Assembly: GCA_014192065.1 (NCBI GenBank)
Contig: BJHH01000003.1
Coordinates: 171,835 to 235,834, forward strand
DNA from: Gemmatimonadota bacterium
GTDB lineage: Bacteria > Gemmatimonadota > Gemmatimonadetes > Gemmatimonadales > Gemmatimonadaceae
Length of the DNA: 64,000 nt
Direction of reading: 5' to 3'
The notes under the pieces were generated by a model. That model was not told the origin of the DNA and ran no database searches. It worked only from the letters and a program-made list of their open reading frames with translations. Position 1 is the stretch's first letter. Each line of letters opens with the position of its first letter. The position numbers were made by a program, and so were the translations under genes. Below are positions 49,263 to 56,138 of the stretch, piece after piece.

Positions 49263-49573
49263 ACGACAGCACGGTCAGGGCCGGGCGGCCTAAGCTTCCT
49301 GCTTCGGAAGGCATCCGAAGGAGGTCGTCACCGAAGCGGACGAGGATATAATTTTGATTGGGATCCGAAACTAGCGTTTATGGCGGGAACTGGTAGCGGG
49401 GCCAATATCTCGGCCGCCGCCCAGGTAGCCGCCCCCCCCTGAATTCGAAGGAACACGAGGTCATCGTTCGCGGGTATGAATTAAGCAAGCGAGTTAGCCT
49501 TGCAGTTGGTTGTATCTCGTACTCTCACAATCTTTGCTTCAGATCCTGATCTCCAGATAAAGGAATCGCAATA
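49263..49573. other. intergenic stretch at island left edge
   Basis: 311 bp without a supported gene. It has a short stem CTTCGGA/TCCGAAG at 49302-49320, a C-run near 49432, and AT-rich sequence from about 49340 on, where base composition first shifts. AAAGGA lies nine bases before the next ATG. I see no clear -35/-10 pair and no repeat of the tRNA-Ser 3' end. Confidence 0.5.
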
Positions 49574-49957
49574 ATGCAACTCAGCAAATCTGTTCCTAGC
49601 AGTGATCTAGGACCCATCGCCGATCTAATCATTTCCACCTGCTTCGATTCGGTGATGGTGACCGGGACCACCGCAAAAACCCCGATCTTGTACGTCAATG
49701 AGGCTTTTACGCAGCTAACGGGGTACATCTCCGAGGAAGTGTTAGGCAAGTCCCCTTCTCTGCTTCATGGCGCAGGCACCGATCCCGCCGTACTCGATCA
49801 GCTCCGTAAAGACCTGGCAGCCGGACGTAGCTTCGAAGGTATTGCCACTAATTACCGCAAGGATGGGACGCCTTTTACGATGCATTGGCGGGTAGCAACA
49901 GTTCGATCTGGAAAGGATGAAGTTCTCTACTTCATCGCGGTGCAACGCCGAGGCTGA
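49574..49957 (+). CDS. short LOV-like PAS protein lacking the photoactive Cys
   Basis: A 127-residue single PAS domain with LOV hallmarks: TPILYVNEAFTQLTGY, GTDPAVLDQLRKDLAAG, NYRKDGTPFTMHWRVATV and YFIAVQRR. The LOV flavin-adduct motif GxNCRFLQG reads GKSPSLLHG here, with Pro61 where the reactive Cys would be. It may still bind flavin or another ligand, but a classical LOV photocycle is not expected. It has no output domain. It is the only plus-strand gene of the photorepair island. ATG 49574 follows AAAGGA. Confidence 0.82.
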   Translation: MQLSKSVPSSDLGPIADLIISTCFDSVMVTGTTAKTPILYVNEAFTQLTGYISEEVLGKSPSLLHGAGTDPAVLDQLRKDLAAGRSFEGIATNYRKDGTPFTMHWRVATVRSGKDEVLYFIAVQRRG

Positions 49958-50277
49958 CCAGCGAAAGCCAAGCTTAAAGACGTGCTGTTGGATTGCGACG
50001 GATCAAGCCCTGCATATTCGAGACACAGAGCCGATTGGAAAGGATTCCGACAACACCGACGACAATAATAATGGACAGAACAGAATCATTTGCTCAGCCG
50101 AATTGCTTCTTACCTTGGACGCGGGTCGCTGGTGTCGTACGTGTTGATTAATGCTATTCTGCAAAGCAACCGATGAACGAACTTGACCACGATCAGCACA
50201 TGCAGCGATAGCTCGCGCCTCGTCGGCCACCCGGTGCCTCAAACTCGTTGACAGGTTCCGCATGGCCCGACGCGCCT
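49958..50277. other. intergenic gap between convergent LOV-like and photolyase genes
   Basis: 320 bp with no gene I can support. Both strands carry only short open frames without family motifs. Composition is lower in GC than host DNA. No terminator with a clear T-run was found. Confidence 0.5.
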
Positions 50278-52755
50278 TTAAAACAATTTGAACTGCGACG
50301 CTGCCGTATCAGTTTTCGCGGCAAGCGTTCCGAGGATCCTGCCCGCTGCCGCCATGCCGCTCAGAAAAGCGCCCTCCACGCGAGCGCCGCCGGCCCAGTC
50401 GCCACAAGCCACGATCCCGGATTCAGCATCGAACAAACAGCGTTCGCTCGGCGGATCGATTGGAAATGCGAACTTCCAGTGATGGGCCGCCAAGTGAAGC
50501 GGAGATTGCGGCGGAACCCCTGCGTCCTGCCAGAATGTGGCCAGCATTTCCTGAGCCACTTCATGCGCGGGGCGGTCCCAATTCTCTTGCGTCCATTTGT
50601 GACCTGCATGCAGCACCAGATGTTCGGCAATATTTGACCGCACTGAGCGATGAGGCTTGGTGCTGTTGCGGGCAACCCACGTGAGCAGAGAATCATGAAT
50701 GAAAGCGCCCACCCAGTCGCTGGTAATAGGTCGCTCCAATGTTGCCAACACAGCCCAGCAGGGTTGCATCTGAATCTTCGAAATCAGTTGAGCGAGTTGA
50801 GGGAACTTTGCAAGCAAGCCGGCGGCTTGAGGTGCTGGAGCCGATACGATCACATGTTGAAACGTGCCCAGCGATCTGCCGACTCCGTCCGTCAAACAAA
50901 TCCCCTCCTCGACCGATTCAATCGTCCCAACCTGAGTCTGCATGCGAACGTCCAGATCGGTTGCCAAATGTCGGCAAACGGCACTCATCGACGGTGAACC
51001 AACGAACCGCTCGTTCGTATCTGGTTTTTCAAACACCCTGCCGTGATTGAGCGACACAATCTTGTGTGATGGATCAGATGCGGAATCGGGCCAACGAGCG
51101 ACAACGCCCTGCTGCAACCAGGAATCGATGTAGCGCCGGAACCGAGGATCGCGCGCCGTAAAATACTGAGCTCCATGGTCGAAGCTGATATGACCATCGA
51201 CACCTTCGACTCGACGGCTCGACATTCTCCCACCGACACCACGGCCCTTGTCAAACACAATGACCGGTACACCATGGTCGGACAGCGTGCGAGCTGCACA
51301 CAACCCAGACATTCCTGCACCAATCACTGCGACGCGCGGAACCGGATCGAATCGAGGCCTCGCCACACGTGTCCGGTAAGATTGCGTGTCGAGCCGCCGC
51401 GCATGTTCTCTGGTTGGACGCGGCCGTACCGTTCCAAACACTTTCGTTTCGGGTTCGAAAGGACGATCAAACTGCCCGAGGCACCAGAGCAATCCGCCGA
51501 ATGACGCAGGATCACGCCCGTCAAGCGCGTAGCGATGATTGAGATCGATCATGAGTTTCAAAGCGTCCTGTGGCAACTTCGTCCAGTTTACAATCGCTTT
51601 GCCCCATGTCATTCGCACGTTGTTGTGCAGCTCTCCCTGCCTCAGCAGCGACATCTGTGCGGCATTCCACAACGCATCATTCGTTTGTGCTCTGGCTAAC
51701 TGCTCCCAAGCATAAAGCTCTTGACGCGAATCGCCACTGTGCGCGAGCAAGGTGGCCTGCGCCCAGTCTGGAAGTGCTGACCATTGGTCGTGGTCGGCCC
51801 GATAAAAACAAAACGCATATGCCAACTCCCGCCAAGTCAGCAATTCATCGAGATATTTGTCGCCTCCTTCGTTGTTGACGGCAGCTGCGTCTCGCGCGAG
51901 CCTCATGGGCGACACCATGCCGTAGTGAAGATACGGAGACATGCGACTGACTCCATCGATCAACGCGTTGTTCCGCCGAACGGAATACTTTGCGATACCA
52001 GTCTCGAGGAATCGTACCCACCGAGCGTAACCCGCATTCGAGCCACCCTGTGTGTCGACCACCGGCCCTACGCAATGGTCGATCATACAGCACGATACCA
52101 GCTCGGGCAAATCAGCTGTCTGCAAATCAAGGGGTTGGAACGGCAGCGTACTGAGATCGAAGGGGCGCACCGTAGAATTGACGTCGGGCCATGCACGAGT
52201 CAGCCGCTCGCTATACAACTTCTTTGTGGCGCTTCGGAACTCAAACGCTCTTGTGTAGTACCGTGTCAGCAATCGCATCGGAACTATGCAAGCCGTGTCC
52301 ACGCATATCAGAGGCTTAGCGACCTGACTGGCCAAAGCGGTCAGCTCTCGACGCGACGGATCGACCGGCATCTCCTCAGTCACCACGACCGTGGATTGTT
52401 CGGAAAGAGTCGTCAGGTGCGAGCCACAGTCGTCGCCAGTCGCCAGATGAAACCCATAACTGATCCCGCGCTGCAGACACTGCTTTTGCACATCGCGCGC
52501 TCCTTGCAGCATGAACATGTGATGCCGGTCAGACGCATAATCGTCATTTTGCGAAAGCGCTTGGTAGACAAGAAGCGGCACACTCTGTTGATCGGCCAGC
52601 CTGATGGCGACCTCTAAAGCAGGATTTTCGTCGGTCCGCATGGCAGTCCGCATCCAGTAGAGCACGAAACGCCCATTTTCATGCGAGCGTGCCGAATTAA
52701 GCCGCATCCGCTCTAACAGATGCGCTGGAAAATCCGCAAATGGATGGTTTACCAT
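50278..52755 (-). CDS. class II photolyase fused to a renalase-like FAD oxidoreductase
   Basis: An 825-residue fusion. Residues 1-465 are a class II CPD photolyase: RFVLYWMRTAMR near the start, RMSPYLHYGMVSP, LDELLTWRELAYAFCFY, DALWNAAQMSLLRQG and YALDGRDPASFGGLLW. Residues 474-825 are a COG3380/renalase-like flavoprotein: RVAVIGAGMSGLCAARTL (GAGMSG 479-484), DKGRGVGGRMSSRR and SFDHGAQYFTARDPRFRR. Both halves should bind FAD. The photolyase repairs cyclobutane dimers with light; the fused half may supply electrons or act separately. ATG 52755 is the chosen start; TTG 52812 would add 19 residues. Confidence 0.88.
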   Translation of the reverse strand: MVNHPFADFPAHLLERMRLNSARSHENGRFVLYWMRTAMRTDENPALEVAIRLADQQSVPLLVYQALSQNDDYASDRHHMFMLQGARDVQKQCLQRGISYGFHLATGDDCGSHLTTLSEQSTVVVTEEMPVDPSRRELTALASQVAKPLICVDTACIVPMRLLTRYYTRAFEFRSATKKLYSERLTRAWPDVNSTVRPFDLSTLPFQPLDLQTADLPELVSCCMIDHCVGPVVDTQGGSNAGYARWVRFLETGIAKYSVRRNNALIDGVSRMSPYLHYGMVSPMRLARDAAAVNNEGGDKYLDELLTWRELAYAFCFYRADHDQWSALPDWAQATLLAHSGDSRQELYAWEQLARAQTNDALWNAAQMSLLRQGELHNNVRMTWGKAIVNWTKLPQDALKLMIDLNHRYALDGRDPASFGGLLWCLGQFDRPFEPETKVFGTVRPRPTREHARRLDTQSYRTRVARPRFDPVPRVAVIGAGMSGLCAARTLSDHGVPVIVFDKGRGVGGRMSSRRVEGVDGHISFDHGAQYFTARDPRFRRYIDSWLQQGVVARWPDSASDPSHKIVSLNHGRVFEKPDTNERFVGSPSMSAVCRHLATDLDVRMQTQVGTIESVEEGICLTDGVGRSLGTFQHVIVSAPAPQAAGLLAKFPQLAQLISKIQMQPCWAVLATLERPITSDWVGAFIHDSLLTWVARNSTKPHRSVRSNIAEHLVLHAGHKWTQENWDRPAHEVAQEMLATFWQDAGVPPQSPLHLAAHHWKFAFPIDPPSERCLFDAESGIVACGDWAGGARVEGAFLSGMAAAGRILGTLAAKTDTAASQFKLF

Positions 52756-53095
52756 TGTGGCAAATGACCGACATTCAGCAGTGAAGGTTGTGTTTACAAC
52801 AGAGACAGTCAACCGTTTAATTTAAGTAGCGCCAGAAAGATCACACTGATTGTAGACGCTGTTCGCGTTCAGTTGACTCTTACTGACCGCAAAGTCGTGC
52901 AACCCGTAAACAACGGTTCTTAGGACAAGTGCGCTAACGCTGCTGAGAAAACGCACAGCCGCACGAAGCACAAAGCGCAACGGGGAACGCCCCGTTATCG
53001 TGGAGAGGTTTTGCTAGCTCGAAGCGCAGCATCGGCCGAATCACCGCCCCGCACGATGCCATTTACCCCAAAGCGGGATCAGTTCAGAGTTGCAG
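52756..53095. other. intergenic gap between the two photolyase-family genes
   Basis: 340 bp without a supported gene. It holds a short 7-bp hairpin AACGGGG/CCCCGTT at 52979-52996 without a T-run, and TTGACT on the minus strand at about 52808-52813, a possible -35 for the fusion gene. It is AT-richer than host DNA. Confidence 0.45.
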
Positions 53096-54658
53096 TTAAC
53101 CCTTCGGAGCGGCACCAGCCCAAATCCGCCGCAATTCGTTGGCCCGTGCGCGAATGTCAGTAATCTCCTGCGGCTTCTTTCGCATCTTCGCTACGTTGCT
53201 GATCGGAAACTTCATCCGCTGATTGTCTTTGAGAAGATCAAAATGCCGGTCCATAAATTCCCAGTAGAGCGTCGTGAACGGGCAGGCATCGTCTCCGACT
53301 CGCTTCTTATAATCGAAGCGGCATCCACCGCAGAAGTTGCTCATCTTGTTGATGTAATTTCCACTGGAACAGTAAGGCTTTGTGCCAACAATGCCGCCGT
53401 CGCCATACTGGCTCATGCCAAGCGTGTTCGGAAGCGACACCCAGTCGACGGCATCCAGATACATCGCCATGTGCCACTCGTGAAACAGACGCGGGTGGGC
53501 GCCCCACAACTGCGCGAAGTTTCCCAGCACCATCAGACGGTGAATGTGGTGAGCATAACCATGATTGATCACATGCTCTAAGGACTGCTTCACACAGTTC
53601 ATCTCTGTTTTACCATCCCAAAAAAATGACGGCAGCTTGAGTTGGTGGTCCAAATGATTCAGTTCGATGTAATCCGGCATCTTCAGCCAATACACGCCAC
53701 GAACGAATTCCCGCCACCCCAGAATCTGCCGCACAAAGCCCTCGACACTGTTGAGCGGAGCTCTGCCGGTTCGGCCAGCTTCGACGGCGGCGTCCACGCA
53801 CTCACGAGGATTCAACAGTTTTAGATTGAGCGGAACCGACAATCGCGAGTGATAGAGAAACGCTTGATCAGTCCACATGGCGTCTTCCCATAACCCAAAC
53901 TGCGGCAGAATATTGTCGATAAAGTTCTTTAGAAAGCTTTTCGCCTGTTGCCGTGTTACGGGCAGTTGGAAATGCTCGAGACTCCCAGGGTGATTCGAAA
54001 AACGAGCTTCCACCAGTTCGATCACTTCCCGCGTAATTGCATCGGGCTGAAACATTTTGGGTTGCGGCAACGTACCCGGACCGGATTTTCCGAAATGTTC
54101 ACGGTTGTCATGGTCAAAGTTCCACTGGCCACCCGCCGGCTGATTGCCGTCCATCAGCACGTCGTGCTTCTTTCGCATATCGCGGTAGAAAAACTCAAGC
54201 AACAGGCTTTTGCGTCCTTCCGCATACCCTGCAAACTCCTCGATCGAGCAGTAGTAGTGGCGATCGGGTCGCACCTCCAGGGCGATGCCAAGTTCATCCG
54301 CAACAGCCTGAAGTTGCGTTCGCACACGCCAGTCGCCGGGCTCGACTAAGACCAGCCGTTCGGGTTCCAGACGTTTGATGTCCAGCCGCAGGATCGCACC
54401 AAACGACTTCCCGCGATCTTGAGATCGTTGCCTGTGCAACTGGTGATAATCGACCGTGCGTTTTGACGTGGTGAGTTCATCTCGAAAATGCCGCATTGCA
54501 GACAGAAACAGCGCAATTCGCAATTTGTGGCACCAGACGTGCGTCGTCTCTTCCTCAACCTCTGCCATCCAGACAACGTCGTTTGTCTGATCGAACCCGT
54601 CGAAAGCAGCCGAAGCATGATCAAGCTGATCGCCCAGCACGAGGATGAGATTACGCAT
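53096..54658 (-). CDS. iron-sulfur photolyase/cryptochrome-related protein
   Basis: A 520-residue FeS-BCP family protein (deoxyribodipyrimidine photolyase-related, like Agrobacterium PhrB). Start [19 protein letters not shown], then [20 protein letters not shown]. The four cluster cysteines are Cys355 (TEMNCVKQ), Cys443 and Cys446 (FCGGC) and Cys459 (DACPFT); PhrB numbering is 350, 438, 441 and 454, a constant offset of five. [20 protein letters not shown] is the FAD region. The family repairs (6-4) photoproducts. It lies 9 bp behind a membrane-protein gene. Confidence 0.93.
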
Positions 54659-54667
54659 TGTCGTCGT

Positions 54668-55105
54668 TCAGCTGTTGCCGAGATGACTGGATGTGATGAC
54701 CATCACAATCACGCCTCTGGCCGTCCACGCAACGGTCCGGATCCAATTGGTTAAGACCAGCTTATGATGAGCTACGTCAGAAAATCCTGCCGTCAAGACA
54801 TCATGCGCCGGCACAGAAAGCGTGGCTGTCGCAATCCAGATCACGATGAGGAGTCCCAGACCCATCCATGAGAGCATGGAAGAAACATTTGGAGAATGCT
54901 TCAGGAGCAAGACAGCAGTCACCAATTCAACGAGCATCGCTGGCCCGACGACCCACATCGTCAGCCGATTGTGCAGTGCTTCGTATTCAGAAAACTGTTC
55001 GCGACCGACATTTGCGTAAAGCGGGTAGTGCACGATCTGCACAAACCAGATCAGGCCGACCATGAACAGCGTTGCGAAGACTTGTGTGAGCAGAATCAGT
55101 TCCAT
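54668..55105 (-). CDS. four-helix membrane protein of the photorepair island
   Basis: A 145-residue protein with four hydrophobic helices (LLTQVFATLFMVGLIWFVQIV; MWVVGPAMLVELVTAVLLL; WMGLGLLIVIWIATATL; WTARGVIVMVITS). VHYPLYANVG and SVPAHD resemble small uncharacterised membrane proteins, but I do not name a family with confidence. ATG 55105 is chosen; GTG 55111 is possible. It is the first gene of an apparent operon with the iron-sulfur photolyase, 9 bp away. Confidence 0.7.
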   Translation of the reverse strand: MELILLTQVFATLFMVGLIWFVQIVHYPLYANVGREQFSEYEALHNRLTMWVVGPAMLVELVTAVLLLKHSPNVSSMLSWMGLGLLIVIWIATATLSVPAHDVLTAGFSDVAHHKLVLTNWIRTVAWTARGVIVMVITSSHLGNS

Positions 55106-55107
55106 GG

Positions 55108-55760
55108 TCACTTATCGTAAGTTTTATCGTGGCACTTCGGCCGGTCGCTGCTGCTCGACTTACAGTTCAGGCTTTGACTGATTGGACCAGAAGGTGACGT
55201 GTCCCCCAACCCTGTACCGAGGATTATGTCGGTCCGGTGGATGGGGAAACGGAAGGTGTAGTGTGCGAGCGCGAAAGCAAACTCACAGGAGCGGGGGGTG
55301 AAGTCTCGAAGCCTGCTGTGTGGCCGCTCGCAGTGGTAGTCGTAGTCGATGCACCACGCCTCGATCGTGCGCGGCGCGTTGTAGAGGCTGTCAAACCAGC
55401 GCCCGTTCAGACATTCCGCGCGGAACGTGCCGTCGAGGCTCTCGACGAACACATGCTACGTCGGCTTCCCCGGATGGATGAATTCCAACAACACGCCGGC
55501 CGTGCGTGCCGCGAGGCGGACAAAATCCATGCTCCAGCGTTCGTTCGGCTATGCCGGAGCGGGCATCGGGCTCCGCGGCACCAGGACGCGGCGGCGGGGC
55601 TTTCGGCGACGCGCCTGCAGTCCTGCTTCTTGATACACGCGTTGCACGCGCTCGTGGTTGATGCGGTGGGCATCGCGTTCGTAGCGGCCAGCGTAGTCGC
55701 AGCGGTGCAGGCCGTAGGGTAGAACTCCGCCGAAGCACCGCAGGGCCACGAGAGGCGAAC
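55108..55760 (-). pseudogene. decayed IS3-family transposase (orfB remnant)
   Basis: Fragments of an IS3 OrfB in several frames of the minus strand. One holds HRINHERVQRVYQEAGLQ followed by RRR repeats (HTH_21 region); a second holds WSMDFVRLAARTAG, then IHPGKPT, a stop, and HVFVESLDGTFRAECLNG; then DYDYHCERPHSRLRDFTPR, the end of the rve domain. Most of the integrase core is deleted and stops interrupt it. I could not place exact insertion-sequence ends. It marks the right edge of the island. Confidence 0.8.
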
Positions 55761-55855
55761 GAGCGGTGCGAGGGCTACCTCGTGTCGCTCGTTCTGTTAC
55801 AGGGAATACCTTGGCACAGTTTTGACACAGTCGGCAATTTCACTCCCGAAACGAC

Positions 55856-55889
55856 AGAGCCGCAACGACGGCTAAGTCGTTGCGGCTCT
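55856..55889 (-). terminator. hairpin after the tRNA-Ser genes
   Basis: A 14-bp perfect stem AGAGCCGCAACGAC/GTCGTTGCGGCTCT (55856-55869 with 55876-55889) just past the 3' end of tRNA-Ser(GGA) on the minus strand. The downstream tract is TGTCGTTT, weak in T, so termination is likely but not certain. Confidence 0.65.
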
Positions 55890-55890
55890 A

Positions 55891-55978
55891 CGGACAGGGT
55901 GGGATTCGAACCCACGGTACGCTATTAACGTACACAAGCTTTCCAGGCCTGCGCCTTAAACCACTCAGCCACCTGTCC
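55891..55978 (-). tRNA. tRNA-Ser (GGA anticodon)
   Basis: An 88-nt type II tRNA. Acceptor stem GGACAGG/CCTGTCC pairs perfectly, the anticodon loop reads CTGGAAA (anticodon GGA, for UCC/UCU), there is a long serine variable arm and a GGTTCGAATCC T-arm. The CCA end is not encoded; discriminator G. It lies 34 bp from the second tRNA-Ser. Confidence 0.95.
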
Positions 55979-56012
55979 TGCGTGCGCGGAACTCGTGCTC
56001 GGAACTAATGAA

Positions 56013-56099
56013 CGGACAGGGTGAGATTCGAACTCACGATACCCTTACGGGTACGCCGGTTTTCGAGACCGGTGCCTTCAACCACTCAGCCACCTGTCC
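56013..56099 (-). tRNA. tRNA-Ser (CGA anticodon)
   Basis: An 87-nt type II tRNA with the same GGACAGG acceptor, anticodon loop CTCGAAA (anticodon CGA, for UCG), a variable arm GTACCCGTAAGGGTATC and T-arm AGTTCGAATCT. CCA is not encoded. It is transcribed first, from a promoter at 56139-56167. Confidence 0.95.
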
Positions 56100-56138
56100 T
56101 GATCAATGCACGACAGCACATCGTTACAGGAACCTCAA

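Follow-up and report, generated by a model that had tools for sequence, protein, structure and literature searches.

How the flavin of a photolyase is kept reduced inside the cell, and what purpose the renalase-like proteins of bacteria serve, are both, to our knowledge, open questions. A gene in the stretch of Gemmatimonadota DNA analysed here (64,000 nucleotides of contig BJHH01000003.1, hereafter the window) brings these questions together, as it encodes a class II CPD photolyase and a renalase-like flavoprotein in one reading frame; this conserved single-chain pairing makes both of them directly testable, including in named strains. Two things must be asked of the locus: whether the chain is a true fusion of two complete flavoproteins and, if so, whether its halves work together. 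The features discussed are collected in Table 1.

Table 1. Features of the fused gene and its surroundings (window positions).
Feature	Position	Strand	Remarks
Fused gene, class II CPD photolyase + renalase-like flavoprotein, 825 aa	50278..52755	-	ATG 52755; alternative longer TTG start 52812
Class II photolyase half, residues 1-463	51367..52755	-	Profile, residue and fold matches
End of inter-half linker, residues 464-473	51337..51366	-	Alignment of 53 fusions
Renalase-like (COG3380-type) FAD oxidoreductase half, residues 474-811	50323..51336	-	Sequence, core-residue and fold matches
DPRP (PF04244) protein, 520 aa, FeS-type bacterial cryptochrome/(6-4) photolyase family	53096..54658	-	Recurrent fusion neighbour; four-Cys pattern from sequence
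147-aa small membrane-protein-like ORF, weak HemJ similarity	54668..55111	-	Relatives at 8 other loci
IS3-family transposase remnant	55108..55452	-	Edge of low-GC island
Two tRNA-Ser genes (gga, cga)	55891..56099	-	Beside island
LOV-like PAS protein, 127 aa	49574-49957	+	GRNCRFLQ-type motif reads GKSPSLLHG

An earlier note on this DNA had described two complete flavin enzymes in one uninterrupted chain and had called for a domain search and a structure prediction, both of which recovered the two domains. The TIGR00591 (phr2) profile matches residues 17-463 with 331 bits (E 1e-98), spanning profile positions 8-452/453; this is below the cut-off of 550 bits, as are nearly all sampled stand-alone bacterial class II enzymes. 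PF00875 matches residues 31-163, while residues 475-811 match the Pseudomonas renalase 3kkj/4zcc (E 1e-67), and the GAGMSG motif begins, as had been read, at residue 479. When the AlphaFold2 model was searched with Foldseek, the top matches included 4cdn (MmCPDII, the M. mazei enzyme; TM 0.90 by target length) and the renalase 4zcc (TM 0.94-0.95 by target length). The N-terminal half is thus a class II CPD photolyase by fold and whole-length profile, and the C-terminal half a renalase or COG3380-type flavoprotein by fold and conserved core. Both halves keep their FAD and substrate residues, and neither shows the loss of FAD-contacting residues that would have spoken against the observation. 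The frame is open over all 825 codons, uninterrupted by a stop or frameshift where the halves join, and this junction recurs in more than 50 homologues that are likewise fused and open. The sequence data confirm that two complete flavoproteins are covalently joined in one chain. A sequencing, frameshift or assembly artefact, or chance, is ruled out because independent open fusions occur across many genomes. Just 5′ of the ATG at 52755 lies a palindrome, GTTGT-AAAC-ACAAC (52780-52805, minus strand), a possible operator.

The fusion is genuine, ancient and kept across many bacteria. A single scan of 84,980 species genomes found more than 50 further examples, and the database count that had been suggested now stands at about 65 fusions from seven phyla (Planctomycetota, Pseudomonadota, Myxococcota, Gemmatimonadota, Acidobacteriota, Thermodesulfobacteriota and Sumerlaeota), mostly Pirellulaceae-type Planctomycetota. 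Carriers include the named strains Rhodopirellula europaea 6C, Alienimonas chondri LzC2 and Aporhodopirellula aestuarii ICT_H3.1. The length of the junction is nearly constant, with a spread of only about 3 residues among 53 aligned fusions. When 294 Planctomycetota genomes were sampled evenly, the matches listed placed the full fusion in at least 10 of them, a stand-alone class II photolyase in at least about 113 and a stand-alone oxidoreductase in at least 27. In the plasmids searched, only separate halves are present. A viral origin was considered and rejected, as phage records gave no match and none was confirmed in viral contigs. A full-text literature search, with most subscription journals and all bioRxiv preprints outside its reach, so that an earlier mention may exist, returned no paper describing the fusion. 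At one planctomycete locus (L040:3431-7319), the fusion is immediately preceded, on its own strand, by a gene for a stand-alone class II photolyase.

The photolyase half appears able to repair pyrimidine dimers in blue light, judging from its residues. In MmCPDII, the CPD is contacted by R164, R256, N257, E301, W305, M379 and W421 (PMC6126647); all of these are present in the window protein (R174/R261/N262/E304/W308/M382/W424). The Trp triad and the neighbouring asparagine of M. mazei (W381-W360-W388 and N403) are likewise kept, as W384-W363-W391 and N406, and the triad positions are retained in 63-65 of the 65 fusions. Two natural variants of the electron chain were observed, in which the terminal Trp388 is Met (L056 and L030, from Rhodopirellula europaea and Aporhodopirellula aestuarii). 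It has also been considered that the photolyase half might mainly be a cryptochrome-like light sensor that switches the oxidoreductase, since 8 of the 10 fusion-bearing Planctomycetota genomes also hold, among the matches listed, a stand-alone class II photolyase, and the fused copy may be specialised. This we regard as very unlikely, as all the CPD-contact residues that were checked are conserved in nearly every fusion, and the window's genome has no class II photolyase besides the fusion.

The outer end of the electron chain, by contrast with its core, has changed. Tyr345 (M. mazei numbering) is found in 45/45 stand-alone enzymes and 21/65 fusions, His356 in 45/45 and 2/65, and Lys384 in 33/45 and 2/65, respectively. 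The window protein keeps the tyrosine (Y348) and D360 but not His356 or Lys384; its changes include K384 to A, Y380 to T and E387 to N, the last two at positions that vary in stand-alone enzymes too. Among 77 positions conserved in stand-alone enzymes, 12 are lost in fusions, and seven of these losses fall in M. mazei 340-361, 384-388 and 429-455, so that they are enriched near the exit of the chain and the C-terminus (7/14 versus 5/63, Fisher p=7e-4, for regions picked after inspection of the data). In MmCPDII, Tyr345 lies 3.8 Å from Trp388 and serves as auxiliary electron donor; Trp388 is deprotonated by a water cluster whose surrounding residues include Tyr380, Lys384, Glu387 and Asp357; and Tyr445 adjoins Tyr380, which itself adjoins Trp360 (PMC5885780). 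Because of these published distances, the C-terminal segment of the photolyase, which leads into the linker, probably passes beside the outer end of the chain. Overall, the fused half is like MmCPDII (PDB 2xry/4cdn/5zcw; TIGR00591) in fold, FAD site, CPD contacts, triad and N403, but differs from it in the added C-terminal oxidoreductase domain and in fusion-specific changes at Tyr345, His356, Lys384, Trp431, Met443 and Lys451.

Whole-chain AlphaFold2 predictions for the window protein (pTM 0.93) and for a homologue about 45% identical to it (pTM 0.92) pack the halves confidently, which suggests that they hold a fixed arrangement and are not beads on a string. Because of these two predictions of fixed packing and the altered chain exit, the reading that we tentatively favour, without yet calling it probable, is that of a single-chain, two-flavin photorepair enzyme with the oxidoreductase as a tethered redox partner; the kept triad and the changed surface end would fit such a partner. 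The oxidoreductase half would dock near the C-terminus of the photolyase, where the triad also has its outer end, and there it might re-reduce the Trp radical left by FAD photoreduction, or return oxidised flavin to active FADH-, and so replace the Tyr345/water relay used by stand-alone class II enzymes. Its hydride source would probably be an unusual reduced nicotinamide (e.g., 1,2-/1,6-NAD(P)H) or another reductant, and not necessarily ordinary NAD(P)H. That the oxidoreductase is a dedicated intramolecular donor in place of the Tyr/water relay, which would make this the first photolyase family with a built-in reductase, seems to us doubtful.

The earlier note had proposed that the oxidoreductase may reduce the photolyase flavin or feed it electrons from NAD(P)H in the dark. 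This proposal is only partly supported. Redox coupling of the halves agrees with their rigid packing and with the altered end at which electrons enter the photolyase. Human renalase, however, acts on the 1,2- and 1,6-isomers of NAD(P)H and shows no activity with 1,4-NAD(P)H (PMC7660482), so that ordinary NAD(P)H could feed the flavin in the dark only with changed chemistry and a changed substrate specificity. This property of human renalase argues, by analogy, against a redox partner, as do the Tyr that the window copy keeps at the Tyr345 position and the two fusions that lack the terminal Trp388. On the other side, a redox partnership is favoured by the completeness of both halves, the nearly constant length of the junction and the single clade formed by the photolyase halves (see below). 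It is also favoured by co-occurrence in Planctomycetota, as 19 of the 27 genomes with a stand-alone oxidoreductase have a class II photolyase versus 94/267 of the others (p=6e-4, among the matches listed), and by a gene overlap on a plasmid of Asticcacaulis sp. DW145 (L171:3992-6098). There, a COG3380-type gene overlaps a photolyase-type FAD_binding_7 gene by 11 bases; the product of the latter, with 390 aa, has no match to PF00875 (the N-terminal photolyase domain), and the arrangement is an independent pairing of both enzyme types.

The oxidoreductase half shares with Pseudomonas renalase (PDB 3kkj/4zcc/5krq) the whole fold (TM about 0.95, about 39% identity) and the GxGxxG, GGR, DxGAQYF, W/R/K/H core and CGDW motifs, and differs from it in being fused to a photolyase and in reading DHGAQYF in place of DMGAQYF, a change also seen in the stand-alone relatives examined. 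Where the fusions are conserved, their stand-alone relatives and Pseudomonas renalase mostly have the same residue. Stand-alone oxidoreductases with this conserved core are also present where a genome gave no class II photolyase match, so the COG3380-type enzyme has a role of its own. The neighbours of the stand-alone genes (ChrR/sigma-E, FolE, SDR, DUF3429, MerR, Dps-like ferritin, BLUF or rhodopsin genes) are photo-oxidative stress settings, and the remark that COG3380 genes often lie near photolyases held in that they sit with photolyase-type, light or singlet-oxygen genes. Similar groupings of photolyase, SDR, FolE, LOV and FAD-oxidoreductase genes are known from the light-response clusters of Pseudomonas (LitR/PhrB/UfaM/FolE/SDR/FAD-dependent oxidoreductase; PMC9758184), where, unlike in the fused protein, the genes are separate and no fusion is reported. 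Only slightly less likely than the reading to which we lean is that the chain combines two independent activities, CPD repair and the clearing of 1,2-/1,6-NAD(P)H or a similar product of photo-oxidative stress, the fusion providing only joint expression and location. Known renalase chemistry (PMC7660482), the shared core and the occurrence of stand-alone enzymes in light, singlet-oxygen or iron-storage clusters without a class II photolyase all point this way, and so does their position in the trees; by itself, this account leaves the constant linker length, the confident rigid packing and the remodelled electron-entry end unexplained.

In the trees, a single clade (SH-aLRT 100) unites the photolyase halves of all 65 fusions and separates them from 46 stand-alone class II enzymes drawn from two phyla plus MmCPDII. 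For the oxidoreductase halves a single clade is rejected (AU p 6e-5, with 24 stand-alone rows, one of which, L062, counted as stand-alone in both the tree and the test, is really a fusion ending at a contig edge), and the fused enzymes have stand-alone ones, from Lacipirellulaceae and other groups, nested among them. This nesting, together with the occurrence of stand-alone enzymes without a class II photolyase, counts against the redox-partner reading. L062 itself was rejected as a nested stand-alone enzyme, being a fusion truncated where its contig ends and bearing an adapter-like stretch. Distances in the trees of the two halves are correlated (Mantel r 0.65). Within this sampling, then, the photolyase half never occurs without its oxidoreductase partner, which for its part has been lost, regained or exchanged. 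A fusion of two co-regulated light-response genes that is neutral or matters for expression alone, without biochemical interplay, would agree with both gene types being light or photo-oxidative stress genes and with the spread of the fused unit across several phyla in a pattern suggesting transfer. We consider it unlikely, since the photolyase half remains fused throughout the sampled clade and the fusion-specific residues and fixed predicted packing also speak against it.

The window copy of the fusion looks foreign to its genome. Class II photolyases are almost all stand-alone in the host's group; a class II match is present in 6 of 15 listed genomes of the host genus, the host included, and the other five are of stand-alone size. 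Lateral transfer is the best reading, because the gene lies in a 6-kb stretch of roughly 54-60% GC within a region of 66% GC, is absent from sampled congeners, adjoins an IS3 remnant and tRNA-Ser genes, has its closest relatives in Pirellulaceae proteins (64% identity) and lies beside the DPRP and 147-aa genes, relatives of which also adjoin planctomycete fusions. A duplicated tRNA attachment site was rejected, as no tRNA-derived direct repeat was found on the far side of the island, and in three congeners the stretch around the homologous flanking gene held no tRNA gene. Genes for 8-HDF synthesis, an antenna not essential for membership of the class II CPD photolyases, were not recognised in the host, with CofG judged only via weak similarity through MqnC; the CofH-like matches were rejected, being the menaquinone genes MqnC/MqnE. 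The LOV-like gene flanks the fusion on the side away from the IS3 remnant and tRNA-Ser genes, and was rejected as a canonical LOV sensor because its sequence lacks the photoactive Cys. The low-GC island extends over 49500-56100 and is edged by the IS3 transposase remnant and the two tRNA-Ser genes.
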